Assembly (NCBI GenBank): GCA_964017235.1
Contig: OZ024929.1
Location: 108,113,793 to 108,177,792 of the forward strand
Reading direction: 5' to 3'
Length of the DNA stretch: 64,000 nt
Source of the DNA: Sabellastarte sp. h YS-2021
Lineage: Eukaryota > Annelida > Polychaeta > Sabellida > Sabellidae
The position numbers were made by a program, and so were the translations under genes. The notes beneath the pieces were generated by a model. The model saw only the letters and a list, made by a program, of their open reading frames with translations. It was not told where the DNA came from and ran no database searches. Positions 1,088 through 27,597 of this stretch are shown here, one piece after another (positions within the stretch are counted from its first letter, which is position 1; each line of letters starts with the position of its first letter).

Positions 1088-2990
1088 AGTTAGTTTAAAC
1101 ATATTTTATTCACAATTAGGCAACAATTGATTTAACAATTATATCAAGCCTTCTTGCACAATGGGATTTATTTACAATGATAAATGAAATGAGACTGCAC
1201 TATCACATCATGAATACCTTGCACAATTAAAACCGCTTGCTTTGAGCAATAAATCTGTGGGCTGCATTAAAAATAACTTTATTTTGATCGTATTTTAAAT
1301 TTCTGCTTCCGCATAAGAGTAAATTGGCATTTATTGTTATTTGGCCTTGTATAAAGTGAAGGGATTCTAAGAGATCATGCCTGATGTTGGCATAGGGCAA
1401 CTGATGAAAAAGTGGTCAGGATCTTCATTTGGAAATCCACAGAGGCAAGACTCACATTCTCTTACATACATATTTTTCTTTAAATGTGAGTTTAGTTTAC
1501 TGTAACCCAGTCTGAGGCAAGTATGGGCAATGTTTGTAGCCCTGTCCCCCAAATTGTAAAGTTTTTGTAAATTTTTTAGATAAGGTGACGGTTGTAGCTT
1601 GTAAAATTTGAGAACCTCTTTGGTAAAAGAACCTAGTGTTGGTTGATTCCTAATATAGGTGGGTATTTTGTTCCATAACTTAGCCCCAACATATGGAAAG
1701 AGACGTTCTTGCAACTTAGTCCTGTTTCTAGGGAATATGAAATCACCTACTGATGGCCTGGTATCAATGTCTTGACGGAGTCTTAGTAGTGAAGATGGAA
1801 CTTCAGATAATCTTGGCAATAAGATGTCTTTCACATAGTTAGCACTTTCATTGTTTATAATTTTATATAACATTTTGAGAATAAGAATATGCCTACGTGT
1901 TTCAAGAGATTGCCATCCTGTCTCTTTGTATAGACTTGATATGTTTGACCTTGCAGGGGCACCAGTTGCAATTCGCATTCCTTGCACTAGTATATTGTCT
2001 AGTCTAGAAAGTAATTGTGTGGGAGCTCCTGACCATACAACACAAGCATACTCCATAATTGATCTAACATAAGTCAGAAAAAGTTTTTCTAAGACTGCCC
2101 TTGACACTGTAAGCTTGAGACTTCTTAAGATTCCTAATAAAGGTAAACATTTATTTATACAACAAGTTATATGGGTATCCCATTTCAAATTGTTAGATAT
2201 CCAGAGTCCTACATGTTTGTGATGGGGAACATTTGTTATAGGAGTATTGTAAAACACTAAGCGTGGAAGATTGCATGCTTTGTGAGTTTGGAGAGATATA
2301 AACATTGACTCAGTTTTAGCTGGGCTAAACTTTACCAGCCATTGTGAGGCCCAAGTTTCGATGTTACTTAAGTCTTCATTAAATACTTTTGCAGATTCGT
2401 AGGTGGAAGAAGACTTAGTAAAGATACAAGTATCATCGGCAAACATCCTTATTTCAGAATGTTTTACTACAGATGTAATGTCATTAATAAAGACAAGAAA
2501 TAGTAGAGGCCCCAGGACAGACCCTTGAGGGACTCCAGCAATTATTGGTAGCCAGTCAGAGAACTGTCCATTGATGATTACTCTTTGATACCGATTGCAC
2601 AAGTAATCTGAAAACCATTTTAAAAGGGTGCCATTAATTCCATTTTTCTTAAGCTTATATAATAGGCCTTTGTGCCAAACCCGATCAAAGGCTTTTGATA
2701 TATCTAAATATACAATTCTGGTATGTTCACCTTCCTTTATGGATGTACTAAAGTAATGATAGAGTTCTAGTAGCTGTGTTACAGTTGATAATCACGATAA
2801 AAATCCTGACTGCCATTTACTTATTAATGAATTTTCAAGAAAGAAGTTGTAAATATGCTTATAAATTATATGTTCAAAAATTTTACCAAGAATGCAAAGT
2901 AAAGACACTGGCCGATAGTTATCAGCAAGTTGTTTTGAAGATTTTTTGTGGATAGGTACAACATTTGCCCTTTTCCATGCAGATTGGAAT
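1088..2990 (-). mobile_element. 5'-truncated CR1/jockey-like LINE with 11-bp TSD
   Basis: A non-LTR retrotransposon copy on the minus strand. The 11-bp direct repeat GATTTTACCTT at 1077-1087 and 2991-3001 flanks it exactly and interrupts family A sequence, so it is read as the target-site duplication. The right edge (element 5' side) begins abruptly inside the reverse transcriptase, with no endonuclease, which is the usual 5' truncation. About 280 bp of 3' UTR lies at 1088-1366, and an AATAAA on the minus strand lies near its end. Age appears moderate, since only one stop is visible in the reading frame. Confidence 0.85.
1367..2990 (-). pseudogene. LINE reverse transcriptase, 5'-truncated with one stop
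   Basis: The frame runs from the right edge of the element to a stop at 1367-1369 (about 540 codons) and is broken once by TGA at 2794-2792, in the context FLS*LSTV. Reverse-transcriptase blocks appear in order: VPIHKK and NYRPVSLL, then SKAFDRVWHKGLLYKL, GVPQGSVLGPLLFLVFIND, and the catalytic FADD (family YxDD). The C-terminal part carries a CR1/jockey-type cysteine cluster (CESCLCGFPNEDPDHFFISCP region). The protein would have copied element RNA at the target DNA nick. No endonuclease domain is present, so this copy cannot be autonomous. The likely GA-codon change (CGA to TGA) fits CpG decay. Confidence 0.85.
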
Positions 2991-3001
2991 GATTTTACCT
3001 T

Positions 3002-3420
3002 GCTGTAGTTGCCTTGGCCTTTAAATCTTGTCCAGGACTAAAACTCATAAACCATAAGATGTACGAAGTTGATACTTAATAGGGACATTGGTTTTGGGGT
3101 ATACATGTGCAACGTCATTGTGTGACCTTGACTTAATCTTTGAGTTGATACTTTGCAGGAATAACAGTTTGTGGATATAGGTGCACAATGTCATAGTGTG
3201 ACTTTGATTTGACCTTTGCCTTGCTGTAGTGACCCTGACCATTAACATTTTACCAGGCCATATCTCAGAAACTATAAGGTGTATGAAGTATATATTTGGC
3301 AAGGATATTGGTTGGGGGTGTTAGTATCCAGTGTCATAGCTTGACCTTGATTTGACTTATGACCTTGCCACAGTGACCTTGACCTTTAAATGTTGTATGT
3401 GCCACACATGTATCTTTAGT
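3002..3420 (+). repeat. family A dispersed repeat, continuation right of the LINE
   Basis: About three degenerate family A units, with TCTCATAAACC, TATCTCAGAAACTATAAGG, GACATTGG and repeated TGACCTTGA/TTGACCTTTG blocks. This is the continuation of the repeat at 790-1087. Confidence 0.7.
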
Positions 3421-3751
3421 TAGAAACAACAAGGTGTAGGAAATTATTACTTAGTAGGTATATTGTACATTTGCAATGTCACCTGTAACCTGGGCTCTGC
3501 CATAATGTTGACTACTGACATATTTGACACATGTTTCTCCTGTCACAAATATCTATGGATTGCTGCAAATTGATAATTATATGTGTTTTACTTTATTCTG
3601 CTGTCTGTATTTACAGATATACTGGTACTTCAGTTGACAAATTTAAAGTTGTAGTTTATGAATTAATGGTGTAATTTGCGTGTTAAATTGTCTTGTTTTG
3701 AGACTCACATTTTCTTATGAGTATTATTTCTCCTGCACCTTTACATAATTA

Positions 3752-3776
3752 TATCCCCAGACGAAAGTCGGGGATA
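3752..3776. repeat. family B left-end hairpin
   Basis: TATCCCC and GGGGATA form a 7-bp stem, followed by a one-base bulge, a GAC/GTC stem and a GAAA tetraloop (25 nt). The same 25 nt recurs at 12452-12476. A CpG-rich GCCGCCGCCG tract follows, as in the other hairpin-ended families of this window. Confidence 0.8.
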
Positions 3777-5990
3777 TATTGGATTCAGGTCCGTCGCGCC
3801 GCCGCCGCCGTAGAAATTTCCCTGTGGACGCGATAACTCAAAAACAAATTAATATTTTTTTTTCAAACTTGGTACACATGTTAAGGATGCCCAAAGGAAG
3901 ATCCCTATTTTAAGGTGACCTTAAACTCCCAGTAAAAAAGAACTTATGGCCACCTTAAGGTCTGAAATTGGACTTTTGGCCACTTAGAGCCCTGTAGGTC
4001 ACAAACTATGATGCTCAGCTGGCTGAAATTTTACCTGACAACACATTAATATGTTCTTAGTACATGTGGTGAAAATCACGACTTTAAGTTGAGGAGAAAG
4101 TTGTGTTTGAGGCCCATAAATACCCCCACTTAGGGATTTTTTGCTATACTTTTCACATATTTTGCCCTATAATTTGGAAGTGGTAATTCTGGCGAGTCTC
4201 AAACTGCGCTAGGTATAACTTTGATATGTAATCCTTGTCTGTAGAAAATTTTACGGCTGTAGGTTTACCCAAAGGGGTCGACTTAAGGTCTCAAAAGTGC
4301 CCACAGAGACCCAATTTATGCACTTTTTGCCACTTTCAAGCACTGTAGCTTTCAAACTATGTCTCTCATCTAAGTTAAATATCATCTGGGAATATATCTA
4401 TGTGTTTTCTTATATGTGCTCCAACATTTAGGCCTTTAATAGACAGTTAACCTGTGTATCAGGACCATAAACACCCACCCAAGTGACCCTTATAAGACAT
4501 TTTTCACATCTTTTTCCCTGTAACTTGGAAATGGTAAGTCTGAGAAGTTTCAAACTGTATTAGATGTATATTCTGTGTGTAATCTTAGTATGTAACAGAT
4601 TTTAAGTCTGAAGCTCCCAAAGACCCAATATTTGGACTTTTTGCTACTTTTAAGCCCTGTGACTGTCAAACTATGTGACTGATAGAGCTCAAATCCTATC
4701 TGGGAAGATATTAGTATGTTATTTTTATATCTGCCAAAAATTAAGGCTTTAAGAAGACATTTAACCTGTGTATGAGGACCATAAATCCCCACCCGAGTGA
4801 CCATTTTTAGACATTTTTCACATATTTTTCCCTGTAACTTGGAAATGGTAAGTCTAAGAAGTTTCAAACTGTATTAGATGCATATTCTATGTGTAATCTT
4901 AGTATGTGACAAATTTTAAGTCTGAAGCTTTAATTTGAAGGCCACATTTAGGTCTCTAGAAGGCCCCATAAAGACCCAGTATTTGGACTTTTTGCCAATT
5001 TTAAGGCCTGTGACTGTTAAACTATGTGACTGATAGAGCTGAAATCTCATCTGGGGATACATTATTATGTTCTTTTTACATGTGCGAAAAATCAAGGCTT
5101 CAAGTAGACATTTAACCTGTGCATGAGGACCTTAAACACCCACCTGAGTGACCCTTTTAAGACATTTTTCACATATTTTGCTCTGTAACTTGGAAATGGT
5201 AAGTCTGAGAAGTTTCAAACTTTATTAGATACATATTCTATGTGTAATCTTAGTATGTAACAAATTTTAAGTCTGAAGCTTTAATTTGAAAGGCACATCG
5301 AGATCTCTAAAAGGCCCACAGAGACCCAATATTTGGACTTTTTACCACCTTTAAGCCCTGTGACTGTTAAACTATGTCATTGATGGAGCTGAAATCCCAT
5401 CTGGGAATGCATTATTATGTCCTTTTTACATATGCCGAAAATCAAGGTTTTTAGTAGACATTTAACCTGTGTATGAGGGCCATAGACACTCGCCCAAGTG
5501 CCTTTTTTGACATTTTTTCCGTATTTTGCCCTGTTATTTGGAAATGCTTAGTGTGACAAGTCTTAAACTGTATTATATATAATTTTTGTTTGTTATGTAT
5601 GTCCCCCAAAAAGTTTCAGATCTGTTGTTTAATTGCTAAGGTCTCTTTAACAATTGTAAAATGCCCACAGAAACCCAATTTATGGACATTATGCCACTTT
5701 AAAGCCCAGTAACTGTCAAACTATGTGGGTTATAGAGCTGAAATCTTTGAATTTTTAAAAGGAAATGCCTGTCTATTTAAATTTTGAATATTAATAATGT
5801 TATGGCTATCTTAGTCTTTTAAGAAATTATTTTTGTGTGTTATACCTCTGCTTGCTGAGTTTTTAACTTTTTAAAATGAAACTGGTTAAACATATTCAAG
5901 TAGACAAAATGGACACTTTAAGTGAGCTTTAAGTCCCGATATTAATGAAATTATATCCTTATGTAGTAAAACTAGGGGATGTTTAACCCT
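3752..5990 (+). mobile_element. family B element with about 350-bp internal tandem repeats
   Basis: Begins with the hairpin. The internal sequence repeats about every 314-351 bp (units marked by TAACTTGGAAATGGTAAGTC or variants at 4170, 4521, 4835, 5186 and 5534). It has no coding capacity. Its right end is not visible here. Candidates are the GTCTGGGGATA motifs at 9235 and 9363, the exact reverse complement of the left TATCCCCAGAC, with another element nested between. Confidence 0.6.
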
Positions 5991-6580
5991 CAACTAGCCC
6001 AGTTTTATTCAACTTGCCTCAGTTAATTTTGACACAGCTCCTACAGTTATGAACTCATTTCAGTTGATAATCACATACTTAAAATTCTCAATTCTTTTTG
6101 TATTTGAGTACCCCTTTTATATACATTGTTTGTTTACCATTTCAGTCTAGAGAAAAAGTGCTGGAAAGTGGCTGGATTTCAGCCACAGTTAAAAACCACA
6201 GGGGTCACTCAAATTACTCTGAAGCATGCCTCCAGATCTTGTCAAAACAAACATGATACTTACACTCATACCAATGTACTTGTATGGAGGGTGGATTGTA
6301 TTTGTTGTACTATTGATATACTGTAAATATAAAAGAGACTAGAAATCACTTGTAGAGTGCAAAGCCCCACCAGGGGCGGCATATCTGAAAATAATGGATT
6401 TTTTTTGTATCCTGCATGTTATCCAGATCTTTCCCAAAATTAAATCATTTCTTCCTTTGGTGGGACCTTACTAACATAAACAAACAATTAGTGTTTTGAG
6501 TTTCAGAGTAGAAAGGAAAGTAGAAAATTTTTATGTTTCTATACAAGACAGAATATCCTTTGGCTTATATATATGTTGTG
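5991..6580. other. non-coding stretch with a weak exon-like segment
   Basis: After a good acceptor (TTTACCATTTCAG, ending 6145) there is an open frame, LEKKCWKVAGFQPQ and onward, of about 55 codons to 6326. No convincing donor or homology is seen. GATCCAGATCTTTCCCAAAA-like text near 6420-6480 resembles family G repeat. Confidence 0.3.
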
Positions 6581-6581
6581 A

Positions 6582-6735
6582 CAGAACTTCAAATCTGACA
6601 GAATTTCAAAATCTGTCGACAGAACTTCCAACTGCAAGCCCTGTTGACAGAAGTTCCAATTGGAAGTTGAGTCAAGATATTTTTACAGAATTTCAAATTC
6701 TGTCAGCAGAATTTCAAATTCTGTCAAAATATTTG
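6582..6735. repeat. palindromic minisatellite
   Basis: Repeated CAGAATTTCAAATTCTGTC-like units. ACAGAATTT and AAATTCTGT are perfect 9-bp inverted arms separated by one C, present twice in tandem at about 6686-6725 and in degenerate form to the left. Confidence 0.7.
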
Positions 6736-6748
6736 GAACTTCTAATTG

Positions 6749-6775
6749 TATCCACCGGATAGCATCCGGTGGATA
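6749..6775. repeat. family E left-end hairpin
   Basis: TATCCACCGGAT and ATCCGGTGGATA form a perfect 12-bp stem with a 3-nt loop (AGC). A weaker version (GTCCACC...GTGGATA) heads the related element at 13070. Confidence 0.85.
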
Positions 6776-7970
6776 CTATGGATTTCGCTTTGTTAAGCCG
6801 ACGCCGATGCAGTGTATAGAGAGATAACAGAACGAAAAAAATATTATAGCTAGCCTTCTCAAATTTGCAGGGTATATTCATAACCATAAAATCTTGCCTG
6901 GGAATATTTTTGGCCTCATTTTGAAAAACAAGATGGCCGCCAGTGACGTTTATTCGACTTTAAACAAGGACTTTTGTTGGCCCTCTAGAGCAAAGGGTAT
7001 TATAGGTAGAGATCTCAAATTCGCAAGATATGTTCCTCATTATAAAATCTTGACTGGGAATATTTTTGGCCTCATTTTGAAAAACAAGATGGCCGCCACA
7101 GGCGTTTCTTTGTCAGTCATGAATAGTGCATATATCTCCCTTATTATTGGTCCTAGAGGTTTGAGATGGTAAACCAACCTATAGGAAATCATGGCCTGGG
7201 AATCTTTTGGTGTGGTCGGATTTGACCTTGGACCCCTCCTTCAAGGTCAAGCGAGGATAGCCAAACTTAAAAGTGCTTATAACTCCCTTATTATTGGTCC
7301 TAGAGGTTTGGGATGGTAAACCAACCTATAGGAAATCATGGGCCGGGAATCTTTTGGTATGGTCGGATTTGACCTTGGACCCCTCCTTCAAGGTCAAACG
7401 AGGATAGCAAAACTTATAAGTGCGCACAAATCAGTTTCCCGCCATTTTTCGCGGTCATCTTGCATTTCTGAGTGAATTGCAAAAATGTATTTATCTCAGA
7501 TATGGTTGGAGATAGAGCGATTTTTGCGAAATTTTTGACCCCCAGATTATCTGCAGTCAACTGGCGATTTTTCTACTTGAATTTCTGCATAAAACACAAA
7601 ACTGGTGATTTGTCTACTTGAATTTCTATGTAAAACACACACAAAAAAAGAAAAAAAAACACATTCATCTATGAAACCTTGCATTTTGGATATAGTTATT
7701 TGCATAAATGGTAAAACATATTATACACAGGAAGATGTTCATTTCTACAAAATCATTAATACCCATTGGGACACTTTGTTTTTGCTGTTGAAAAACAATT
7801 TCTTTCTCTCTTGTGAAGCAATACTCTAGTTTTGGTTGCTGTTGCAAATCTAAGTCCATGGCTGAGTAGATTGACACCAGTAGCTGATTGGAGTAAAGTG
7901 TTTAGGACTAGAAAATGACTGGGGATGTCACGTTTGGGGATGCATTGCATTGAAACGTAATCTCCAGTTA
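6749..7970 (+). mobile_element. family E element, copy 1
   Basis: Starts with a perfect hairpin. It holds two copies of an AAACAAGATGGCCGCC module (about 6925 and 7080), then two units of a 147-bp tandem repeat (TTATTATTGGTCCTAGAGG at 7141 and 7288). It ends in a long imperfect inverted repeat at about 7918-7970 (CTGGGGAT..ACGTTT / AAACGT.ATCTCCAG). Non-coding. The internal repeats carry TTGACCTTGGA and TTCAAGGTCAA nuclear-receptor-like half sites. Confidence 0.6.
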
Positions 7971-8735
7971 CTGTTGGAGTAATTGCAAACACAAACAGAT
8001 AAACAAATGCAAAAAAAAACATAACCTCCTGATGGATGTAAGGAATGAATTAATTTTTTCCCTCAATAAATTTTATTGTACATATGTGGTTTCCAGTGTG
8101 AAATAGATTGGGAAATATCTGAATCATGTTCCAGATACCCCAAAAATCCCACATTTTCAGAAATTCTACCAAGCGGAGGTCTGCACTATACAAGCACTTC
8201 TGGTTCAATTTGTAATAAAAGGGTAAAATTGCCATGCAAATTATGTTAGGTATTGTATGATTAAGGTTACTAAAAATATGGATATATTGACTGATGTAGG
8301 TTTTATAATCACTTGTTTCTTTTTTTTCCTAATAGTCCTCTACACTCAAAGAACAAGTCAAATTTGAATGTAGTTGAAAAGACAGTTTACTGCAAGTACC
8401 TTATACACCAACATATCTGTGTTATCAAATGAAAGAAAACACAACCTGACAACTGACAGCAATAAAACTCAGTGGGGTATGACAGGGAGGGTCATGGAGA
8501 GGGGAATGAATTAAAGGAAAACTTTACACTTTTTCCCTAGACTGATTTATGCTATAGCACTCCATCTCTTTGTAGTCCCAACCCACATCCCCCACCCGGA
8601 TTCCCCCGACCCACCTCTGGGACCTCCAGCTATATTGAGTGACACTAAATAAACAAAGGTATTTAATGATATCAGATGAGAAACAAAGAACTCAATGGGG
8701 TTGCAGATCTTGTGTAATAGTGAGAGAGGTGTGGA
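7971..8735. other. non-coding stretch, no gene seen
   Basis: Intron-like AT-rich DNA. A strong polypyrimidine acceptor (CTTTTTTTTCCTAATAG, near 8334) is followed only by short open frames with no supported donor. Confidence 0.4.
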
Positions 8736-8744
8736 GAAGGGGAG

Positions 8745-8769
8745 AGGGGTGGGGGTGGGAGGTGGTGGG
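8745..8769 (+). other. potential G-quadruplex tract
   Basis: Four or more G runs of at least three (GGGG, GGGGG, GGG, GGG) with short loops occur within about 25 nt. Confidence 0.55.
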
Positions 8770-8936
8770 CTTCATTACATATAACACAAAGGGGAGTCAG
8801 AACTGAGATTGTGTCACATATTTAGGTTGCATATATATGGACCACATATATAGGTATAGAGGAAATGAATAACTGAAAACAATTTGCAAATTCTAAAAAT
8901 AATATAATAAAATAATAATTTAAATAATTTTTTTTA

Positions 8937-9178
8937 AAATAATATTTTATTTGTGAACAAATATAGAAACAGATATGCGCTTTTGGGATTATGAATTTTA
9001 GAATGGACATTGAATCATCAATCATTTAAATACTTTGAAGGAAGATTGAAAAGTATGATGAGTTGAGTTAAAAATAATATTTTATTTGTCAATAAATATA
9101 GAAACAGATATGCTCTTTTGGGATTATTATTTTAGAATGGACATTCAATCATCAATCATTTAAATACTTTGAAAATAG
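8937..9178. repeat. tandem duplication, 135-bp offset
   Basis: AATATTTTATTTGT through CATCATTTAAATACTTTGA occurs at about 8941-9040 and again at about 9076-9175, with few substitutions. The copies share AGAAACAGATATG and ATTTTAGAATGGACATT. Confidence 0.85.
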
Positions 9179-9234
9179 GTTTAGAGTTATCATTGCAGGA
9201 AGATTGAAAATATAATTTGAGTTATGTATTCGGC

Positions 9235-9400
9235 GTCTGGGGATACACCATCTTCCTTGGGAAGATATAAACAGAGTAGATTGATGTGCTGAAGTTCATA
9301 TAATAATGGGTAATTATGTTTTAAAAAATTCCCGATCAAAACCTGTGGCGTGAGTGATGACCTGTCTGGGGATATGTTGGCGCCGAGTTGGCCCAATCTA
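9235..9400. repeat. two family B right-end motifs with hairpins
   Basis: GTCTGGGGATA occurs at about 9236 and 9363. Each copy is followed within a few bases by a hairpin. The first is perfect (ATCTTCC TTG GGAAGAT, about 9250-9266); the second is imperfect (TTGGCGCC...GGCCCAA). GTCTGGGGATA is the exact reverse complement of the family B left end. Confidence 0.6.
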
Positions 9401-9534
9401 GTTTATACTGTTATGAAAGGCTTCATATCTTTGTACTTTTTCACCTCTTCCATATCTAATGGTATCCAACATTATTTCTCAAAGTTTTGGGGTATCGGCA
9501 TCTCTGATATTAGTTTCTAGTGGTTTTATCCAAC

Positions 9535-10395
9535 AGCCCTTAAGGGCTCTGATGCTCTGATGAGCATTATTTTCACCCTTGGTGTCTGCGTGGGCGTCGG
9601 GAAAAGTTTGTCTGGGCTGTATCTCACAAAAGGTGTAGGAAGTTGATACCTAGTAGGGACATTTGTTGGGGTGTAGGTTTTCAACATCATGATGTGACCT
9701 TGATTTAACCTTTGACCTTTAAAATCTTGTCAGGGCTATATCTCATAAACTGTAAGGCATAGGAAGTTGATACTTGGTAGGGACATTGGTTAGGGGTGCA
9801 GGTGTGCAACGTCATATGTGTGATTTTGATTTGACCTTTGACCTTGCTGCAGTGACCTTGACCTATAAAATCTTGTCTGGGCTATATCTCGGGAACCTAA
9901 AGGTATAGAAAGTTGATACTTGGTAAGGACATTGGTTGGGGGTGTAGGTGTGCAGTGTGCATGGTGTGACCTTGATTTGATATTTGACCTTGCCTTAGTC
10001 ACCTTGAGTTTGAAAATCTTGTTTAGGCTATATCTCATAAACTGTAAGATGTAGGAAGTTGATACTTGGTAGGGACATTGTTTGGGGGGGGGGGGGGGGG
10101 GGGGGGGTGTAGGTGTGCAATGTCATTGTGTGACCTTGATTTGACCTTTGACCTTGCTGTAGTGAGCTTAACCTTTAAAATCTTGTCCGGGCTATATCTC
10201 AGGAACCATAGAATACAGACAGTTGATACTTAGTAGGGACATATGTTGGGGGTGTAGGTATGCAGCGGTATGGTGTGATCTTGATTTGATCTTTGACCTT
10301 GCTGTAGTGACCGGGCTATATCTCAGAAACCATAAGGTGTAGGAAGTTGATACTTAGTGGGGACATTAATGTTCATTTTAATACTTTATCTTTAC
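9535..10395 (+). repeat. family A array (about six units)
   Basis: Starts with palindromic CAGCCCTTAAGGGCT, then units about 118-160 bp apart marked by CTATATCTC at about 9616 (degenerate), 9734, 9882, 10028, 10190 and 10315. Each unit carries GTTGATACTTGGTAGGGAC and TTGACCTTTGACCTTGC. Perfect DR1-like TGACCTTTGACCT occurs at 9832-9844 and 10142-10154. Confidence 0.8.
10084..10107 (+). repeat. poly-G tract (24 G)
   Basis: Uninterrupted G run at the family A consensus site GGTTGGGGGTG. A second run at the same consensus position is at 27750-27766. Confidence 0.9.
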
Positions 10396-10957
10396 ATAAA
10401 TTTTGTCTCTCCTAAACATTATTTTCCATACTTAAATTATATTTGGACCTTCACAAAGCTGACACTGTCTACTATGAAAGTCTCCTGATCTTTGAACTGT
10501 TTCACTTCTTTTGTATCTCTTGGTGTTGAAAACTATTTCCCCTGACTTGGGGTATGGGCATCTCCGATGCTATTTTTGGGGATTTTTATTTTCACTTGCA
10601 ATTTTCTATATAGTCCTAACCGTGCTCAGAATTTCACCAAATGGGCAAAATATGATTTTTGATGCAATTGGGCAAAAGGCCAAAAGAGATTATATTAAGC
10701 CTCATGTTTATCTCAAGAAAAACTGTTTTTTGTGTTCTACAGCAGTTTTCTCAAATGCCCTCTGGTCCACATTCTGAGGCTATTTTTTCTATGAACTGAA
10801 AATCATAAGCTTTGAATACATCTAAACAGCGTAAACACAAGTTATCTGCATTGTTAATTCATATCAAAGCAGGAAGAAGGACTCACATTTTAATATGTAT
10901 ATAACTACAGTTGCTGTTAAAGTTTCGTTTTCAATTGTTTGATTTTATTTGTTTCAG
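10396..10957. other. intron with family A right-end sequence
   Basis: Contains a family A right-end motif near 10535-10585 (TTGGGGTATGGGCATCTCCGATGC, with a GCATC/GATGC stem). The rest is AT-rich intron leading to the acceptor at 10957. Confidence 0.5.
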
Positions 10958-11039
10958 CTTCATTTTCCACAATGATTTACCAGTGATTGTTGCTCTTGTA
11001 TATAAAGAAAATATAACAGAAAATGCAACCTTTTTTGAG
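10958..11039 (+). CDS. thioredoxin-fold protein, exon a (first strand and helix)
   Basis: The acceptor TTTGTTTCAG precedes 82 nt of open frame and the donor GAG|GTAACC follows. One base completes a codon from an upstream exon, then 27 codons read FIFHNDLPVIVALVYKE and onward to ATFFE, ending in phase 0. PVIVALVY looks like the first buried strand of a thioredoxin fold, and the following segment is helical in character. A catalytic thioredoxin would have CXXC here; none is present, so this is a non-catalytic domain like the b-type domains of PDI relatives. Joined with the three downstream exons it gives 134 residues. I suspect a TXNDC16-like ER protein, but cannot confirm it without a search. 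Confidence 0.6.
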
Positions 11040-11449
11040 GTAACCAGATTATACTATTTTGTATTATGGTTAATTGTGATTTATTAGATACTTTTACTGA
11101 ACTTTTTCAAGAAAATTTATGTTCTCAGTAATAACCAAAATTATAACTATTTGAGAAAGTTGTTTTTCAATACAGGTAAAACTAATTTCATGAAAATGAT
11201 TAATACTTGGGAATACCTGAAAAAATGTTATGAATGATTTTGAGAAGACTGTCATTTTCAGTCATAAAACTTGAATTTAGATGTTTTGATTTTTGCTGCA
11301 AAAGTCCATCTGCAGCGTTGTAAAAGTGTCGCTCTGAGTAAATTTGTAATTTTTTGCTTTATCTGTTGTAATTGTAATGAATTGTAACTTACCAATTACC
11401 TGTCAGGTACAGATGTGTTTTTGTCTGGAGTTCAGTGAAGTGTGAATTT

Positions 11450-12165
11450 GTTGTAGAATGTTGCTTTCAATGTATAATAAGATTTGTTTTTGAGATTTTA
11501 CAGAATGTTGCATTTAGTCTGTGAGCTGTGTCTTGTAGCGTCTAAAGAATGTTTCTTCTGTCTGTGATGTGTTTGTTGTAGGTCCTACAGAATGTTGCAT
11601 TTAGTCTGTAAGCTGTGTCTTGTAGAGTCTAAAGAATGTTTCTTCTGTCTGTGATGTGTTTGTTGTAGGTCCTAGTGTCCTACAGAATGTTGCATTTAGT
11701 CTGTAAGCTGTGTCTTGTAGAGTCTAAATAATGTTTCTTCTGTCTGTGATGTGTTTGTGTAGATCCTGCACAGTGTTGCATTCAGTCTGTAAGGTGTGTG
11801 CTTTAGATCCTACAGAATGTTGCATTCAGTGTGTAGGGTGTGTGCTGTTGGTTATACAGAATGTTGCATTCAGTCTATAAGCTTATTGCATTCTGTCTGT
11901 AATGTGTTTATTGTAGATCCTACAGGATGTTGCATTCAGTCTGTCAGATGTGTGCTGTTGGTTGTACAGAATGTTGCATTCAGTCTATAAGCTTATTGCA
12001 TGCTGTCTGTGACTCTGTGATGTGTTCGTATAGATCCTACAAAGTGTTGCATTGAGTCTGTAAGTTGTGTGCTTTAGATTCTACAGAATGTTGCATTCAG
12101 TGTGTAGGGTGTGTATTTTAGACTCTACAGAATGTTGCATTCAGTGTGTAGTGTTTGTATTGTAG
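11450..12165 (+). repeat. tandem array of splice acceptor plus exon-start copies
   Basis: At least nine units of T(A/G)TAG or TTTAG followed by a copy of the first 27-30 nt of the next exon. Frames at 11582, 11763, 11807, 11917, 12034, 12078 and 12122 read V/I/T-LQ-N/D/S-VA-F/L-S-L/V, mostly then a stop, against the true exon's VLQDVAFSLY at 12166. Four starts at the right end (12034, 12078, 12122, 12166) are exactly 44 bp apart, as are 11763 and 11807. Longer 90-110-bp units lie on the left. Confidence 0.85.
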
Positions 12166-12277
12166 GTTTTGCAAGATGTAGCATTCAGTCTGTACACTGA
12201 TATGGTGCTGGTCACTGTTGATGTGAGGGAGTACACAAGTTGGAGTCACCGCTTCATTCCAAAAAACTACCACAGAG
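12166..12277 (+). CDS. thioredoxin-fold protein, exon b
   Basis: Acceptor TATTGTAG and donor AGAG|GTAACT bound 112 nt in frame: VLQDVAFSLYTDMVLVTVDV and onward to IPKNYHR plus one base. It follows exon a in phase 0. The first part continues the helix, and MVLVTVDVRE looks like the next buried strand of the thioredoxin fold. The exon is the last, full-length member of the 44-bp array in the preceding intron. It is conserved in frame, whereas the array copies stop after nine or ten codons. Confidence 0.65.
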
Positions 12278-12451
12278 GTAACTTTCAGTTCACTTTGATT
12301 TATGTTACCTACACCGAATGGTCGAGGTAATTTTGTATACATCTCCATGGATGTGTAAATACTTAAAAACTTTGTTTATAATTAGCAATATATTTTTTTT
12401 GTAATTATAAGCAACAAATTACTCACCTGGTAAACACATTCAAATGAATTG
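12278..12451. other. intron start
   Basis: Intronic AT-rich sequence between the exon b donor and the family B element. No feature seen. Confidence 0.5.
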
Positions 12452-13062
12452 TATCCCCAGACGAAAGTCGGGGATACTTAGGATTCAGTTACGTCACGCC
12501 GCCGTCGCAGAGATTTCCTTTCGGATGCGAAAACTTAAAAAGTATTTTAGTTAGACCTTTCAAATTTGGTATGTGGGTATATATGGGCAATGCTACGAAC
12601 GCTATTGTTTTGTGACTTTGACCTTCAATTTCAAGGTGACTGGTGGCCTTTTAAAGGTCAGATTTTGGCCATTTTTTTTTCAAATTTTGGCCCAGTTCTC
12701 ACATACAGAAAGTTAGATCATCCTATGGGTGGTATATATAATATATATATATGTCCTCTGTAAGCATACAGAAATTTGACCTTGAAGTTCTTCACTGAAG
12801 GTCATCCACAGACCACCAAAGTACCTGACCGAGGCCATTTTTGGCCTTTTTGGAGATATTTTCACACTTAATGCTGACTATATTTCATGGAAACTATTGA
12901 AAATGGCTTTGGAGGTTGAGTACATGATGGAGTACCAGCATCCAGTTTGTTGACCTTGGCTATTGTTTTCAAGGTCACCTTAGGCCTGCTAAAATGATTC
13001 AAAATGGTACCATTACTGCATATATATGACTATATAAGACTGTGAGGCCATATACCTCCTTT
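12452..13062 (+). mobile_element. family B-like element, second copy
   Basis: Begins with the same 25-nt GNRA-tetraloop hairpin as 3752 and a GTCACGCCGCCGTCGC tract, but the interior differs from copy 1. It is rich in TTGACCTT and AAGGTCA half sites. The right limit is set where the family E-like hairpin starts. A possible true right end is GTCCAGGGATA at about 14229. Confidence 0.5.
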
Positions 13063-13069
13063 ATTATTG

Positions 13070-14270
13070 TGTCCACCAGAGGCATAAGTGGATACTTTGG
13101 TTTAGCATTCGCTACGCTGCCACCGCCGCCATGCGTAGAGAGATTTTCAGCTTTAACACTCTCAGACGTAAACTACACCAGCTAGGTTCACCAAATTTGC
13201 AAGATATCTTCATTGAGGGGTAAGCTTCTTTGGGATTGAAATTAGCCTCATTCTGAAAAACAAGATGGCCGCTGTGGGCATTTCTTTGAAAATTATCTAC
13301 ATTTTTCTACTGGCTGTTTCTCATAGGTAGAAGTTTGAATCTCTTCATAGGTGATATGTATAACAGATATACATGTTCTCTACAACCTTGCAGACATTTG
13401 ACCTTGAAGCTCTTAATTCAAGGTCATCCACAGAGTGCCAAAGTAACCCACATAGCGGACTTATTATTGGTACTAGAGGTTTCCAATGTCAAACAAACCT
13501 ATAGGAAATCTGCTGCGAATCTTCTGATGTTGTCAGATTTGACCTTGGGGCCCCTCATTCAAGGTCATTCAAGGTCAAACAATGTTAGCCAAACTTAAAA
13601 GTGCTTATAACTCGTTTATTATTGGTCCTAGAGGTTTGGGATGGTAAACCAACATATAGGAAATCATGGGCGGGAATCTTCCGGTGTGGTTGGATTTGAC
13701 CTTGGGCCCCTCCTTCAAGGTCAAACAAGGATAGCCAAACTTAAAACTGCTTATAACTCACTTATTATTGGTCCTAGAGGTTTGGGATGGTAAACCAACC
13801 TATAGGAAATCATGGGCTGGGAATTTTTTGGTGTTGTCAGATTTCACCTTGTGCCCCTCGTTCAAGGTCAAATGAGGATAGCCAAACTTAAAAGTGCTTA
13901 TAACTTGCTTATTATTGGTCCTAGAGGTTTGCAATGTGAAACCAACCTATAGGAAATCATGGGCTGGGAATCTTTTGATGTGTTCAGATTTGACCTTGGA
14001 CTCCTCCTTCAAGGTCAAATGAGGATAGCCAAACTTAAAAGTGCTTATAACTCTCAGCCACCCATTTTTGTACCCAGTACACATTGTGGTCACACTTTTC
14101 AGCTGTATACAGTGGTATGCACCCTGCCAATAACTTTCTCTAATTTTTCTTAACTTGCCAGTGATCTGTAATCTTCCCCAAAATTACTGAAAACATAATA
14201 CTCTGTATGTCATGGTTCAACTATGTCCCGTCCAGGGATACACTGCGTCAAGACGCATTATCTAGTTTTA
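13070..14270 (+). mobile_element. family E element, copy 2 (four 147-bp units)
   Basis: Left imperfect hairpin GTCCACC...GTGGATA, CpG-rich CCACCGCCGCC, then a CAAGATGGCCGC module and tandem units marked by TTATTATTGGTCCTAGAGG at 13461 (variant), 13616, 13762 and 13909 (146-155 bp apart). The right end at 14229-14266 has CCAGGGATA followed by the perfect hairpin TGCGTC-AA-GACGCA (14244-14257) and ATTATCTAGT. Confidence 0.65.
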
Positions 14271-15690
14271 TTACTATGTGATTTAGACTTGCAATTTTGC
14301 TTTAAATTCCCATAAGGACAGTGAAGTGATTTATTTTGGAAGTCCAAATCATTAGGTGTGTGCTACATATGCTGTACATTTAATTGGTCTATTAATATTC
14401 TGATGATGTGGTACTACAATTTTTTGTTTCATTATTTTCTTTTTGCAAATAGATTTATAACTTCATATGATTTCAGTATTATGTCAATGTAGTACTTTGT
14501 TTCCGATTTACTTAACTAAACTATATGTATGATTTCGGTAATTGTCAAATGCATTATCTCATCTAGAAAAAAAACATGAAATAGTTGACATTTTATGGTT
14601 GTTTTTGTATTAAACATCAAAGTGATTTATCAGGTGATTGTTGTGATTTTAAAGCAGAATAGGTGACCTTAATAGTAACTGTAACCGTATAATTTGTCAC
14701 AAAACAGTCAGGTTTTTGGGCTCAACCAAAACAATTTTCAATAGAGGTCGCTGAATAGTTTTAAATTGCACGTTATTGGAATAAAACTTTATGTCACGTG
14801 AATTAAAATTACATATCAGGGCCATTGAAAAGTGAAGGCCAACAATAAATTATGCCAATTTCTCTAGGGGCCGAGGGATGGGTCTTTCAACAGAAGAAAC
14901 CGGTTTCAGATTGTCTTTACTTATTTGACCAAAAGATGGAGACATATAAAGGGGTGTGATGTGACATGCTGTTCATACTAAGATTCAAACTTGTACATGT
15001 TGCTTGTTATGAGTTTGTTTTTCAATAGTTTATGGCAAAAATGAGGTAAATATGCGCAGGGCTAAAACAAGATTTCACAAAGTACAACCTTTATTTTAGT
15101 TCTCTTTCATGTCTTTGATACACATTGATTTTTTTTTTTACATCACATCATTTCTTCTGTGTACATGCCATTAGTGTGACAATAACAAAAAAATGCACCT
15201 CTTTCAATACATTTCAAATGCACAGATAATGCAAAGTGTTATGGAATGATGAGAAAATCATTTAGTATTTCTGCATAATATTATAATTTATACTTGTTTT
15301 TGTCATTTAATATAATCTGTAAACGTGATAATATACTACTTTGTCTTGTTTGGCCTTCTGTTACTGCTCAGCTACCCAAGTTTGTTGCCTACCTAAGTTT
15401 GTCATTCGCGACATTCACATATTATGGCAATATTAAAACCTCTTCGCAAGTAACTCTCTTTGTTGAGTAGTAAAAGTACTGTTACAAGTAGTTTTGCTAT
15501 TTGTTTAAATATCAATTTTACGTGCCCTTTGTAGTTTGAAAAGCAGGTGATGAACTTGGGTGGGTGGCGATAATAACAAGTGTTTTTTTTTTCAGTTTAT
15601 GCTCACAATACATTCTCTAATAAACTTGTTAAATTCAGTAAACAATTTTTCACATTCATTTTATTTATTTGGACTACAAAAAAGAAGGAA
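14271..15690. other. large intron segment, no gene seen
   Basis: AT-rich, apparently single-copy DNA. A CACGTG E-box (near 14794) and a CATATAAAGG about 150 bp downstream are promoter-like but weak evidence. Confidence 0.4.
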
Positions 15691-16005
15691 AATTATGTAA
15701 TAATAACACTGAGCTCTTATATAGCGCTTTTTCTACTATCAGTTCAAAGCACTTTACACAGTATTACCCCAGCAAGGATAGCTAGCTTTGGTAACCTTAC
15801 CTATTGCTGCCATACAATGCGCCGAAGCCAGTATCCCTTATAGCTGGGTACCCATATTTCCCTGGGTGGAGAGAAGCACAGTCCAGGTAGACATTCCTGC
15901 CCAAGAATGTTATCCCACATGATACAGTTGACATCAGTGGGAAATGAACCCATGACCATTGGATTATGAGTCCAATACCCTACCAACTGAGCCACATGAG
16001 ACCCT
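15690..16005 (-). mobile_element. tRNA-Met-derived SINE
   Basis: Read on the minus strand, the right end gives a tRNA-like head (16003 to 15938): A-box-like TGGCTCAGTTGGTAGG, anticodon arm TTGGA-CTCATAA-TCCAA with anticodon CAT, and B-box GGGTTCATTTCC. The acceptor stem does not pair, so it is not a functional tRNA gene. The distal end has the AAGCGCT / AGCGCTTTATA-type tail (TATAGCGCTTTTTCT...TCAAAGCACTTTAC) seen in many invertebrate SINEs. It lies antisense in an intron of the thioredoxin-fold gene. Confidence 0.8.
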
Positions 16006-17539
16006 GTGTATATTTTTATTTTCTTATTTAGGTTTGCTTTTGCTTTAAAAATAAGACATAATATAATAAAAGACTGGAAATGCAGTTGTATTAAAAAGTG
16101 AAAAAGGTTGAATTTAACTCTTTATGTTAGTTAGTGTTGTTTGGAAATCAGAACATGATGATGAAAGAAAGTCCGCTATTGAAAATGTCTATTTCAATTA
16201 CCCAATGAGTTTGTTTCCCATTCTACATTCCACAGATTGAAATGATTGGTGAAAACAGAATAACAATAAAGACATTAATAAACATGGCAATTGTAGTAAT
16301 ATGACATGCACTTATTTTTCAAGTGTCCCCATTGAAAGTAAGTACCTTCAATGGAGTTCTATTGCATTGAAATAACTAGTGTTATTGATATAATATCCAC
16401 TGACTGTGTTGTGCTTAACAAGCAATGGCTCCATCCATAAATGTAACCTTGTCACCTTGATTGGTGGAATTGCATGGCAAGCCAGCAGGGTTTTCAAGTG
16501 GCCCTCACTTTGTCATGTTTTAGGCCATGCTTCACAGCCCCAGTAATGTATGGTACAATTCACTGAGACCAAAGACTTGTTATAGTCAGCATTAGGTTTC
16601 CTTAATTGCTGTTAAACTTCATTTCCTCTGCCCACTAAAATCACTTGATGTGTGTGTGTCTCCCCAGTCCTGTTATCATTTGTTCTGTGACCGGGTTTCA
16701 CTGATTTCAAATAATAATCTTCTCTTAATCCACTTTTTTCACCCCATTACATCTAGTATTGCCCTTGCTTTCAATGTTCTACCCCATTTTACAAATTGGA
16801 AATGTCATCAAAGGCAGGTATTGTAGCCAGCAGCCACCTGATTGTGATGCGATTTGTGTGGTTTGTATTAAAAAGAATACACGTTGTTGACCTCAAGGAT
16901 GTTCAAAGTAGTTCAGTAACAGTTACCGTTTCACAAATTTTTTTTTCTCAATCATAGAAAAAAGACTGACATAATTTCAACCAATTTCGAGTTTCCTAGC
17001 TTGTTATTATAAATCTATAACAACTTATACATGTATATTATGTTTAAAAATGTTTTGTTATGTTCAAAACAAAAGAAAAAAATAATTTTAAGTAACTTTT
17101 TTTGCTTTCAGATTAAGTTATTCTTGTGTAACTATAACCCTTTGATACGTTTTGTGCCATGAAAAGTATTAACTTTACTTGTACATTAAAGCTACAGAGA
17201 AACATACAGTGGACCCCTATAATATCTTATCTCAAACAAAACACCTAACTTAACAAGGCATTCCAGATGACAGGATGAATTATAAAATAAAAGGGTCACG
17301 GAGACCTCGTATTTGCTTCTGTTTAAAAGGCAGTTCTGCCCATCAGAGGTTTAACTGTGTACACAAATGTTACTGTATCTTATAGTCAACTCTATAGTCA
17401 ATTGTAGAACTATGGGAAATCTTGCTTAAATTGTTCATTTTCCAAATGGGTTGTGTCTTGTTTGCTTCCCCTAATCTCCCCGATATGACTAAAGTTGTCA
17501 GTAAAATTGAAAATCTAGGATGTGTGTTTAAAATGAATC
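16006..17539. other. intron segment, apparently single-copy
   Basis: No ORF or repeat recognised. About 16400-16760 is less AT-rich and of higher sequence complexity than its surroundings, which could suggest a conserved non-coding element; this cannot be tested from one sequence. Confidence 0.35.
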
Positions 17540-18281
17540 CAGTACATTTGGCCAACGGACATTTGGCTGATGGACATTTGGCTGGCGGACTTTTGGCCGG
17601 TGACTTTTCTGGGGGGTAGGACAAAGGCTGGTGACATTTTATATGATATTTTAATATGTTCCTAAATTAAATAACTTTGTAAATATTGCAAAGTAGGTTT
17701 AATATGTTGCTTTTATATTGTCTCCAAATTTTTTTAAAAAATTTTATTGACACAAAAACATAATAGAACAATACATCTAGACATTGTAACATCATCAGCT
17801 CCTGAGCAGTTATCAAAGGCCTTTTAGTTTCTTATAATCCTGAGCAGTTATCAGAGACTAAACTTAAAATCAATCAGCAACTCTGAATAGGAATCAAAGG
17901 CCTTTTAGTTCTTTTGTGAACATTATATTTAATCCTGAGCAGTTATCAAAGGCCTTTTAGTTTTTTTTATGTAACATCATGTTTATTTAAAGTCATCATT
18001 TTTGATAAGAAACCAATAATGAAATACATGTAGTTAAAAACAGTTTATTTTACTTGAAACAATATAAAAATGATATTTTTAACTCCCTTTGCAGTATGAA
18101 CACAAGTTGTTGTTTTTTTCATTTGGGGCAAGTAATAAAATAACATATAATAACATAAATAAATATTGGAACAAATGAGCAAATAATATAATAACATATA
18201 ATAACATAAATAACTTATAAAAAAGTCACTGGCCAAATGTCCTGCCCCTCATCAAAGTCACCGGCCAAATGTCTGTACACT
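17540..18281. mobile_element. MITE-like element with long imperfect TIRs
   Basis: The left arm (17540-17640) has iterated ACATTTGGC(C/T) units, GGCCGGTGACTTTTCTGG and GGACAAAGGCTGGTGAC. The right arm (about 18215-18281) is their inverted counterpart (AAGTCACTGGCCAAATGTCC, TCACCGGCCAAATGTC). Inside, CCTGAGCAGTTATCAAAGGC is repeated at about 17801, 17837 and 17935. No transposase is present. A clear target-site duplication was not found. Confidence 0.65.
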
Positions 18282-18529
18282 GTTTAAAGCACATTTTAAA
18301 CCTTTTTGGTTGTCCAGAACTGGAACACATTAACTATGTAGTCCAAGGTTTAAATTTACACACTAACTTGCCTTACACTTTGAATACTCTTGTACCATTA
18401 CTCTGCACTATAACAACTACTATTTTTTAATAATATGAACTAATTTTCTTCGAAAAATGATTTAAAGTAGCACAAATTTTTCATTTTATACCAGATTTTG
18501 ATGCATTTTTAATTGGAAATGGAAAATTG

Positions 18530-18592
18530 GCCTCCTAGAAAAATGGCCTCCTGGAAAAATGGCCTCCTAGAAAACTGGCCTCCTTGAAATTT
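18530..18592 (+). repeat. short minisatellite
   Basis: Four units of GGCCTCCTRGAAAAATGG type (15-16 bp). Confidence 0.8.
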
Positions 18593-18742
18593 GAGGGGAC
18601 GGAAAAATGTTTAATTTTACTTAATAGTGCTCTTCATAGTTCCTATATGGGTTATATGATTGATTCTTTAATATAGTTATTTCAATATAGGATAACTACT
18701 CAGGACTAAAGCACCAAAGATTTGGTTCTCTTTGATGACTAA

Positions 18743-19000
18743 TCAGGATTAAAACTATGCATAAAGATCTTTTAATTATTAAATTTCTAAGACAGCAATG
18801 TCTGATTGAAATATACTCAAGACACAAATACCTGCCCAGAATTGCAAGGACAAAGATATAAATTCCTTTATATAACTGTAAACTCAGGATTAAAATTATG
18901 CAAAAAGATATTTTAATCATTACATTTCAAAGACAATATAGTCTAATTGAAATATACTCAGGACACATTCAAATACCTGCTGAGGATTGCAAGAACAAAA
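18743..19000. repeat. diverged tandem duplication, 140-bp offset
   Basis: TCAGGATTAAAA.TATGCA at 18743 and 18883, each followed by GATTGAAATATACTCA-type sequence (TCTGATTG / TCTAATTG), ACACAAATACCTGC-like text and GATTGCAAG.AC. Confidence 0.8.
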
Positions 19001-19081
19001 ATGTAAAGTTTTAAAACTAATGTTGTGTTTGGTCATGTAATGTAACATATTCTTTTTAATTAATTTATGATATACACGTTT

Positions 19082-19640
19082 AACTCCAGCCCATAAAGGC
19101 TGGGGTTATTGTCTTCACCTGCGCCGTCCGGGCAGCGGCGGCGACAGGCATAAAGCTTGTGGGTGTTCCACAGCCTAAACCCATGCATGGATTTTCACCA
19201 AATTCTCAGGGTATGTTTACCCCAAGAGGATCTAGAGTGGATTAGGTTTTGAGATGTATCTGGCAACAACGTTTGCCATGGCAACACTTTTAAAATTTTT
19301 TGGTCTTAAACTTTGTGGGTGTTTCACAGCCCAAACCCCTTCATGGATTTTTACCAGATTTTCAGGGTATGTTTATCCCAGGAGAATCCAGAGTTGATTA
19401 GGTTTTGGGGGGTATCTGGTAACAACTATTGCCATGGCAACACTTTTTAGATTTTTTTGTCTTTAAAGCTTGTTAAACCGATGCACAGATTATCACCAAA
19501 TTTTCAGGGTACATTTATCTCAAGAGGATCTAAAGCTGATTAGTTTTTTGGGGGTATCCAGTAACAACTGTTGCCATGGTAACACTTTAAAAATTTTTTG
19601 GTCTTAAAGCTTGTTAAACCGATGCACAGATTATCATTGT
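19082..19640 (+). mobile_element. family C element, + orientation
   Basis: Starts with hairpin AACTCCAGCC-CATAAA-GGCTGGGGTT (19082-19107) and a CpG-rich GCGCCGTCCGGGCAGCGGCG tract. About three internal units follow, each with GTGGGTGTTCCACAGCC- or GTTAAACCGATGCACAG-type text, ATGTTTACCCCAAGAGGATC and an X-box-like palindrome (19272-19285, 19428-19441, 19570-19583). The right end is not defined. An inverted copy is at 47110-47853. Confidence 0.7.
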
Positions 19641-22058
19641 CCTACTGACAAAAATATCCGTGACTATCTGAATCTGTTCTCCACACTTTTTAACTTGTTT
19701 GCTTTTCCTAATTTTTCACCTTAATAACATGAGCATCATAGTTTTATTTAAGATCACAATTGTTCATGGTCCATAAACATTCTCACAAAATATTTTTTCA
19801 ACATTTATATTCTGAATGCTGCCAAATTTAATCATCTCTTTTTCACACTTGGTACAATATAAAATTTATTTAAACTAGATCGAGTCTTTTTTGTGATCTT
19901 TCTTCTCACACCGAGATAGATAATAGACCAACAAAGAAAGAAACATAAATAGCTGCTGATTAAGATAATCATCCTTGAAAAATCTAACTCAGCATTTTGT
20001 CAATTAAAAGGGTTCCAAATATTTATAACAATCCAGTGGACTTGGTCTTACAAAAATTGTGGGTTAAAGTATCAGTAATTTATATATTTATTTAAAAAAT
20101 TAAAAAAACCTTATTGTGATAGTCTCATTATAATCAGTAGTCTCTGTCTTTTGCAAACTTTATGGGACATGTCCCATTTGTGGAACTTAAACAAAAATAT
20201 ATTTTGCTGCTACCATAGCCAATTTGAAAACAGTTTAATGTCCAACAATTAACACTCACTGCAAGTTAGCACAGTGTCATTTTTGTAACATCAAATATAT
20301 GACAGAATATATGTTGGAAATTTCTATTTTTGGTTTCCAGAGGAAAGTGATAATAAATATCTGACAGATATCTTAAGAAATGTTTCAGTCTGAAAATAGA
20401 ATATTCTTTTTGATAACATGCAGATATGTGTATGAAAGAGCTTTGGTCAAAAGATTCACTTTATGAGACGGCAGCCTGACCTCTCAGCTGTGTTTTGCCA
20501 ACACTTGTGGCTTTCTGGTGACAAGAGGACAATGCCTGCTTGTTTTTTTAAATACAGGAAGCATAAATACATAAATACTTTTAGTAATTATCAAATCATC
20601 CTCCTTATTAAGGAGGGTGTATCCCTTTGCATGTTAAATGTTCTTAGCATGCTATCCCTGTATGTGATGAGCTGAAGTAATTGGGCTTTAAGACCTGTTG
20701 GGTTTGCAGTTTGTCTATCTTTCTAAGGTATCATATCCCAGATGACAATAGGTCATTTAAAGGTGGCACTGGTGGCCCAGGTGGTAGTGGTCAGTGTACT
20801 ATTGTGTTTTAAAGGCTATTTACAGCCTTGTTTGTTACCTGACCCCCCTAAGCCCTCTCCCCACAAATGTAAGACCATGCTTAAGCAGTGACTCAAACTC
20901 GAATATGTAAAAAACTGGCATTTTTAAAAGTAAACTGTTACTACGTCAATTGAGTTTTTGATGGCATTGTCAATACTGAATAGAAATATGATATCAGAAG
21001 CGTATGGAATTTCACTGTAACTGCATGATAGCCACCTTCAAAATACCTATGTGATTCTGAATTAAGATGGCTTTAACAGTCTCACCATGATTTAGTTTAG
21101 GTGTGCGGACACACATGCGATAAAGCATCTCTATGTGGCTGTATGAGTGTGCAGCAATAATAGATGAGGCAGTGGCAGTGCATGTTACCAGAAAGCTATT
21201 GTTACACTTTTGTCACTATTACATGTAGCGTGAAACAGGGAGAGTGTGTCGTTAATGACCACTGCACAGATCATCTCTCTGGTCTCCCTATGTAGACGTA
21301 CACTGAACTTTTCAATCTTTTTTGAGTTAAGGCTCCCTTACTGGTAATTTTTTTAGTCAGTGTCTGATAATTTCTGCTGTAAACATGTTATAAAAGCAAC
21401 CCCAAAAATTTCTGGACATCTGAAGCAAAATTGAAAATAGAATATTATATTAAATTTTTCTAAAAAAAGGTTACTTGAACAGGTGCACTTAAATTTGGAA
21501 TTTTCTTGGTATAAATGTAGGAAACAATAGAAATAATACATGTCATCATTTCATTTAAGTCTCATCAGTGTCTAATCCAGTATCATCATTTTTCACAGTG
21601 CTGCTCATTACTGTGATGGGGGGAAACTTATTTGAAATATGTTCCGCTATTGCTTTGATGTTTTACCCTATTGAATTATTCTTTAAGGCAATCTATACTA
21701 ATCCCGTGCAACCACCCCCTCCCCCCATCTACCTGTGGCAAAACCCAAACCTAATTAGATACCAAATTATTGTATCAAATTTTAATGATATGGCAAACAA
21801 CTATAGTGATAATACAGCTCATCCATTTTGGGGGGCTTAATCCAGTTAAAGGTTGATATTAATTTCTACCTGCGAGTACAATGGAATGTTTTTGTGGCCT
21901 CTTTGACCATATCACATTAGCAAAGAGAGGACTTTCCATTTAATATTTTATAGCCATGTCATTAATCAGGAATACCTTTTATTTATACCAGGTAACATTG
22001 GTGATAATGACAACCATCAATAAAAATGAGAGTTCAGTCTGTGTATATGTGTTTTCAG
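19641..22058. other. intron segment, no gene seen
   Basis: AT-rich, mostly single-copy-looking DNA. About 20990-21300 has higher complexity and could be conserved non-coding sequence. Short open frames at 20463-20675 and 21568-21840 show no splice or homology support. Confidence 0.35.
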
Positions 22059-22185
22059 GGCTTACAGATGAGGTACCTCCTGTACATATTTACCCTCGCC
22101 TCTGTGTCATTCACTGGAGTGACCACAACCATGCAGCTTTCTACCCTCCATTGGATCTCAGCTACACAGTAGATGACCCCTTCAG
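22059..22185 (+). CDS. thioredoxin-fold protein, exon c (cis-proline region)
   Basis: Acceptor GTGTTTTCAG and donor TTCAG|GTACTA bound 127 nt. Two bases complete the Gly codon begun by exon b, then 41 codons read LTDEVPPVHIYPRLCVIHWS and onward to YTVDDPF plus two bases. VHIYPRLCVIHW has the form of the cis-proline loop and central strand pair of a thioredoxin fold (P before a buried strand). No redox cysteine pair is visible. Phases on both sides agree with exons b and 24239-24323. Confidence 0.65.
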
Positions 22186-27595: not shown

Positions 27596-27597
27596 AC

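Follow-up and report, generated by a model that had tools for sequence, protein, structure and literature searches.

A continuous array of 44-nt tandem units extends across a predicted intron-exon boundary in the annelid Sabellastarte sp. h YS-2021, and it is likely to be a mirage, that is, a minisatellite whose unit spans the predicted live 3′ splice site and which is for the most part a neutral consequence of repeat turnover. The window (the whole stretch of 64,000 nucleotides that was analysed) has a G+C content of approximately 34% and belongs to a host genome of 1.79 Gb. The array comprises 16 rows upstream of the exon, some of which are partial, and the first 29 nt of the predicted live exon (12166-12194) form its last, partial unit. 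Each unit consists of approximately 15 nt of intron end and 29 nt of exon start, and both the exon and its acceptor at 12166 are predictions called from the sequence. The coordinates of these features are listed in Table 1.

Table 1. Positions in the window of the array, its parts, and the adjoining predicted exons.
Feature	Position	Strand	Remarks
Coding exon preceding the array (predicted), 82 nt	10958..11039	+	Open frame between tttcag and gtaacc
Predicted intron containing the array	11040..12165	+	Flanked by exons 10958-11039 and 12166-12277
Minisatellite, probably of the mirage type	11455..12165	+	Wrap-around alignment, Tandem Repeats Finder rows, no second locus found in genome searches
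Segment containing three diverged units (11539-11581, 11626-11676, 11721-11762)	11539..11762	+	Alternating with standard units
Partial unit	11880..11916	+	Similar one near 11990-12033
Final three units, at exact 44-nt spacing ahead of the live acceptor	12034..12165	+	
Predicted live exon, 112 nt	12166..12277	+	Phase 0 start (VLQDVAFSLYTDMVLVTVDVREYTSWSHRFIPKNYHR), donor GTAACT after GAG

Wrap-around alignment of 11455-12194 to the 44-nt unit gave a score of 730, compared with 25-30 for six dinucleotide shuffles. Tandem Repeats Finder reported overlapping arrays with periods of 44, 87, 95, and 110 among its rows between 11499 and 12194; several periods overlap because the diverged units at 11539, 11626, and 11721 alternate with standard ones (resulting in spacings of 87/95/86 nt) and because some units are partial. 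The alignment row 11961-12033, for example, combines a full unit with a partial one. The three diverged units read TAG followed by AGTCTAAAGAATGTTTC-TTC..., carry a one-base deletion at the same place in each, and differ from one another by only 2-5%. Since they fill what would otherwise be gaps, the array is continuous. The 64-kb window contains 11 occurrences of a core motif of the unit, compared with an expectation of 0.16; all of them fall within 11500-12145, and none of 100 shuffles contained 11 or more. Homology with the exon stops at +29 (position 12194). Of all AG sites located outside the array (7113, counting both strands), 12166 agreed best with the array consensus (22/29, followed by 19 and 16), and none in 60 shuffles surpassed 20/29.

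An AG is retained in register before 11 of the 16 upstream rows (ten TAG and one GAG) and is absent from the other five. The first-pass annotation had listed at least eight copies of the exon start preceded by TAG; seven upstream TAGs are indeed in register at the places it gave, but the eighth place is the live exon itself, and the three diverged copies, and with them the continuity and full extent of the array, were missed. Its observation that 12034, 12078, 12122, and 12166 are spaced by exactly 44 nt is correct.

The exon preceding the array ends in phase 0, reading ..FIFHNDLPVIVALVYKENITENATFFE, and joins the predicted live exon in frame. Further upstream, a presumed exon at window position -1064 to -927 joins 10958 in frame via a split codon, and the 100 kb upstream of the window contain additional presumed exons with plausible splice sites, among which the exon at -12326 has no direct join by phase, an exon or boundary still being missing there. 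The 62-aa peptide encoded by the two exons flanking the array matched Pfam Thioredoxin_6 with an E value of 0.014 (query 2-50 on profile 90-138, no net gap), and the 110-aa peptide of three exons matched the same family with an E value of 0.0031; both matches fall short of the Pfam curated cut-off, the latter having 17.9 bits where 27 are required, and neither of the two exons taken singly gave this match. A weak Thioredoxin match (E 0.13) was also found for two presumed exons near -30 kb. The Thioredoxin_6 match of the joined exons should be regarded as no more than suggestive, since comparable matches also arose by chance: a peptide with an artificial deletion gave E 0.006 against the unrelated MVP_shoulder, and unselected candidate exons (94 in number, of which 80 were aligned and 79 scanned) hit seven mutually unrelated families, one member each, with E values down to 0.02. 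A Pfam search of stop-masked plus-strand frames in window positions 1301-11100 and 12278-31900 at a cut-off of E 1 found nothing that would name the gene, and NCBIfam provided no match. In the Protein Data Bank, the 62-aa peptide retrieved ornithine monooxygenases alone (E 0.9-1.1) and the 110-aa peptide had no match. The locus looks like a multi-exon gene whose product contains several thioredoxin domains in degenerate form, and we would presume a likeness to TXNDC16, which it brings to mind.

Comparison of the units with one another and with the exon provides some insight into the history of the array. The unit adjacent to the exon (12122) differs from it at eight of the 27 exon-like nucleotides, within a range of 6-8 for 11 units, and over 44 nt its distance to the exon is 0.25, compared with 0.23 for 11917 and 0.25 for both 11582 and 11851. 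In the eleven standard units, to which this comparison is confined (the three diverged and the partial units being left out), the mean number of differences is 4.1/27 from each other and 6.9/27 from the exon, and one or more of the 11 copies carry the exon base at 26 of the 27 exon positions. Nearest-neighbour distances between units go down to 0.02, while the live unit is at least 0.23 away from all 14 compared, the distances of the diverged three being overestimates in which their one-base gap is unplaced. Close pairs of units that are not adjacent (11763/12034, 11807/12078, and 11851/11961) were also observed, as expected from block duplication inside the array. Because the adjacent unit is no closer to the exon than others and the units are closer to one another, an old first duplication followed by intronic turnover is indicated, and the array does not look like the product of repeated copying from the present exon. 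The suggestion that it was born by slippage across a live intron-exon boundary is therefore in part sustained, in that the array spans the boundary, although the pattern is unlike repeated copying from the exon as it now stands.

Minisatellites with such a position have been named. In amphioxus, 'mirages' were described at intron-exon boundaries of Adh3 and the globin genes BflGb6 and BflGb9 (PMC3087553) and additionally in troponin C and PGBD5 (PMC3902484), and the view taken in the first-pass annotation, to which no named class was known, is wrong. According to the former report, the BflGb6 unit combines the 3′ end of the intron with the 5′ part of the exon, splice signals are kept in many but not all units, inner units are homogenised while cluster boundaries are not, the units of the Adh3 mirage measure 10-72 bp, and BflGb6 has six or three copies depending on the haplotype; to judge from Adh3 data and RT-PCR, splicing seems to proceed regularly despite the mirages (PMC3087553). 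All four mirage features that can be assessed from sequence were found in the array: its tandem units resemble a minisatellite and lie at a single intron-exon boundary (as judged from the predicted exons), its unit holds both the intron end (~15 nt) and the exon start (29 nt), the splice dinucleotide is kept in many but not all units (11/16), and the inner units are homogenised to the exclusion of the boundary unit, which is at least 0.23 away. Its 44-nt unit also falls within the 10-72 bp described for Adh3, and it resembles the amphioxus mirages in being a boundary minisatellite with partial retention of splice signals and an unhomogenised boundary. It differs from the BflGb6 mirage in the gene concerned and in having 16 rows rather than the six and three of the two haplotypes. 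The host genome of 1.79 Gb and the ~34% G+C of the window are also unlike Branchiostoma, with its ~0.5 Gb and 41%. The array is thus probably a mirage outside amphioxus, the only group from which mirages were found reported in a search of open-licence papers; reports from other groups may exist.

Two other systems offer partial parallels. In a potato RdRp gene, an intron was gained by a boundary-crossing duplication (PMC4974935). A segment across an intron-exon boundary was duplicated there as well as in the array; however, no new intron is evident in the latter, where an existing intron was lengthened, although the donor-like GTAAG of some array units could in principle give rise to one. In human duplicated genes, internal tandem repeats, which are minisatellites with a mean unit of ~30 bp, change the intron structure (PMC2812944). 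Some of them are located at exon-intron boundaries like the array, but, unlike it, they are recent and lie within segmental duplications, and for most of the intron modifications a transcript that retains the repeat in an exon is also described (PMC2812944).

Origin by duplication across the predicted live acceptor is supported by the sequence. An old tandem duplication would have taken in both ~15 nt at the intron end and 29 nt at the exon start. The most downstream copy, which alone was still attached to the remainder of the exon, would have stayed exonic, and the upstream copies would have become part of the intron. The reading frames agree with this step: of the 53 AGs found between 11455 and 12166 (inclusive), 12166 alone leaves the frame open across the exon with phase 0 splicing. 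The intronic copies may then have multiplied and exchanged sequence by slippage or unequal crossing-over, producing the mixed spacing and the near-identical non-adjacent pairs. Splicing most likely still occurs at 12166, in which case the array would be close to neutral; if a copy were used as an acceptor, a premature stop would follow and the transcript would probably be removed by nonsense-mediated decay.

The opposite order of events is unlikely, namely that a new acceptor arose from a minisatellite already present in the intron and that the exon acquired its first 29 nt by capture of the last unit. It would account for the end of homology inside the exon at +29, as expected for a captured unit, and the domain match that speaks against it is weak. 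Nevertheless, the thioredoxin-like match runs without a net gap and requires residues that the repeated stretch encodes. When the ten exon-start residues of the two-exon peptide, nine of which lie fully inside that stretch, were deleted, shuffled (three variants), or masked, the Thioredoxin_6 match was no longer reported in any of the five variants, and deletion abolished it in the three-exon peptide as well. Substitution of the residues of the array consensus improved the E value from 0.014 to 0.0057 for the two-exon peptide and from 0.0031 to 0.0013 for the three-exon peptide, so the domain agrees a little more closely with the consensus than with the exon, as would be expected if the consensus were a copy of an older coding sequence. 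The exon and the array consensus differ at seven of 27 nucleotides, all of them outside codon position 2, and the encoded residues change from V to I and from D to N; such conservative differences in the exon frame have a P of ~0.01 by BLOSUM score and 0.08 by the number of changed residues, in a codon test that is weak, as three of the 11 array copies themselves give P 0.03-0.07 against the consensus. These comparisons suggest that the thioredoxin-like domain includes the repeated stretch and that the array was copied from that stretch, perhaps from an older version. Since the match depends on residues from the repeated stretch, the exon is probably older than the array, and capture of an array unit as exon is disfavoured.

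Whether the upstream copies serve the gene as acceptors was also considered. A bank of poison acceptors, spliced at a useful rate so that stop and decay follow and the copy number tunes gene output, appears very improbable, even though the 11 in-register acceptors upstream all lead to a premature stop, as had been anticipated. The stop comes after nine codons in seven of the 11, which bears out the claim that nearly all stop right afterwards for these copies only, whereas the other four stay open for longer (11721 for 13 codons, 11539 for 21, 11626 for 26, and 11917 for 31). A donor-like GTAAG or GTGAG is found at +27 in five of the 14 registers examined, and in four of these the AG is in register: units 11582, 11677, 11763, and 12034 have TCT followed by GTAAGN (GTAAGT in 12034) and 11495 has GTGAG, while the live exon has GTACAC. 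Together with the acceptor of its unit, which is in register except in 11677, such a site would bound a possible microexon of 26 nt, a length that is not a multiple of three and would shift the frame. Furthermore, the live site does not stand out by crude acceptor score: its value of 4.2 falls among those of eight in-register copies (1.4-4.5), and ACAG sites within several units surpass it (up to 6.9). On the other hand, AG and stop would persist without selection in tandem units derived from one acceptor, five of the 16 upstream rows lack the in-register AG, no special RNA fold is predicted (5/25 tandem arrays of shuffled units were as low), and published mirages, those of amphioxus, are described as leaving splicing undisturbed (PMC3087553, PMC3902484). 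The proposal that the copies function as decoy or poison acceptors is unsupported. An extension of this idea, according to which the array is a copy-number dial whose weakly used, stop-leading acceptors set the level of the thioredoxin-like protein and mirages are a recurrent means of tuning beyond amphioxus, is highly doubtful. It is also quite improbable, in a model based on predicted folding, that hairpins in the copies hide them and leave the live acceptor alone open. Several standard units are able to form a hairpin (-6.4 kcal/mol for the consensus 31-mer, compared with -2.3 for the live exon start), and the unpaired probability of the live AG in local folding (0.42) exceeds that of nine of the 11 in-register copies. 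However, 25 of 500 shuffles (5%) equalled the consensus hairpin, units 11721 and 12034 fold at 0 and -1.1, and copies 11807 (0.43) and 12122 (0.51) are no less open than the live site. The fold of the whole array has a z of -5.9 against 20 sequence shuffles but is ordinary against tandem arrays built from shuffled units, five of 25 of which matched its energy, and sequestration by RNA structure was dropped. None of the computed features (acceptor score and folding) explains why 12166 would win, save its junction with the rest of the exon. The mostly neutral mirage is the preferred reading.

Searches of the 1.79-Gb host genome with 12122-12290 and 11760-12165 as queries revealed no second array locus, in a procedure that ignored very common words and scored the best candidates only, so that distant copies could be missed. 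Occurrence of the same repeat at many unrelated loci, which would have made its match to the exon start coincidental, was not found. There was likewise no sign of a dispersed repeat or transposon, matches being confined to the array locus in the genome and the core motif to the array in the window. Ten exons were compared for edge copies, namely the array exon, eight presumed exons of its gene, and a zinc-finger exon; copies within 2 kb were found only at the 12166 acceptor (11 places with at least 26/44), and the other nine acceptors and the ten exon ends had none at that level. In a survey of protein-kinase genes (30 loci out of 131 matches, with 611 candidate AGs and 319 GTs and a threshold of 30/44), 28 of the 30 loci showed no edge copy at 30 or more of 44, one (L039) had a single copy at its 3′ edge, and one (L041) had at least three, also at the 3′ edge. 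The latter is a 76-nt array of approximately five copies on the reverse strand of L041 (~2442-2829; G000:C1 near 91.313 Mb) at the 3′ edge of the kinase frame, where it repeats the last coding residues (DDQDLEDYADFT..), the edge being an exon end or the gene end. Because of the L041 array, edge duplication is not unique to the array gene in the host genome, yet it is uncommon in the 30-locus sample.

Several other elements were observed in the window. The zinc-finger exon (43603-44775, plus strand; zf-C2H2, E 3.1e-14), which we take to be KLF-like, begins with a sequence similar to VLQDVAFSLYTD of the array exon and matches the array unit at 19/29 nt; this likeness is probably due to chance, as 0.13 such AG sites are expected per window. 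A 474-aa open frame on the minus strand (1367-2791) reads by eye like what we presume to be the reverse transcriptase of a non-LTR element. Large tandem arrays with units of 133, 154/155, and 321 nt are located at 50348-53722, 58348-59454, 62115-64000, and 36524-37444, several of which have phrases in common, for instance AGTAGGTGAA or TAGCTATTACTCAG. Two separate arrays at 7125-7423 and 13568-14053 contain a very similar 147-nt unit and flank the gene segment studied here. Just 3′ of the array exon, 12461-12570 and 13080-13216 appear by eye to be fragments of a dispersed repeat (..GTCACGCCGCCGTCGCAGAGATTT.. / ..ACGCTGCCACCGCCGCCATGCGTAGAGAGATTTT..), and the peptide SPDESRGY near 3721 is similar to them.

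The array provides a dense and apparently non-amphioxus example of a boundary minisatellite, and it offers a test of boundary arrays as raw material for new introns. Its intronic copies may retain the coding sequence in an older form. With about a dozen similar acceptors within 700 nt, of which one alone leads to protein, the locus would also constitute a natural test of how the spliceosome chooses an acceptor. If the highly doubtful copy-number dial were true, expansion or contraction of the minisatellite would set the amount of the protein.
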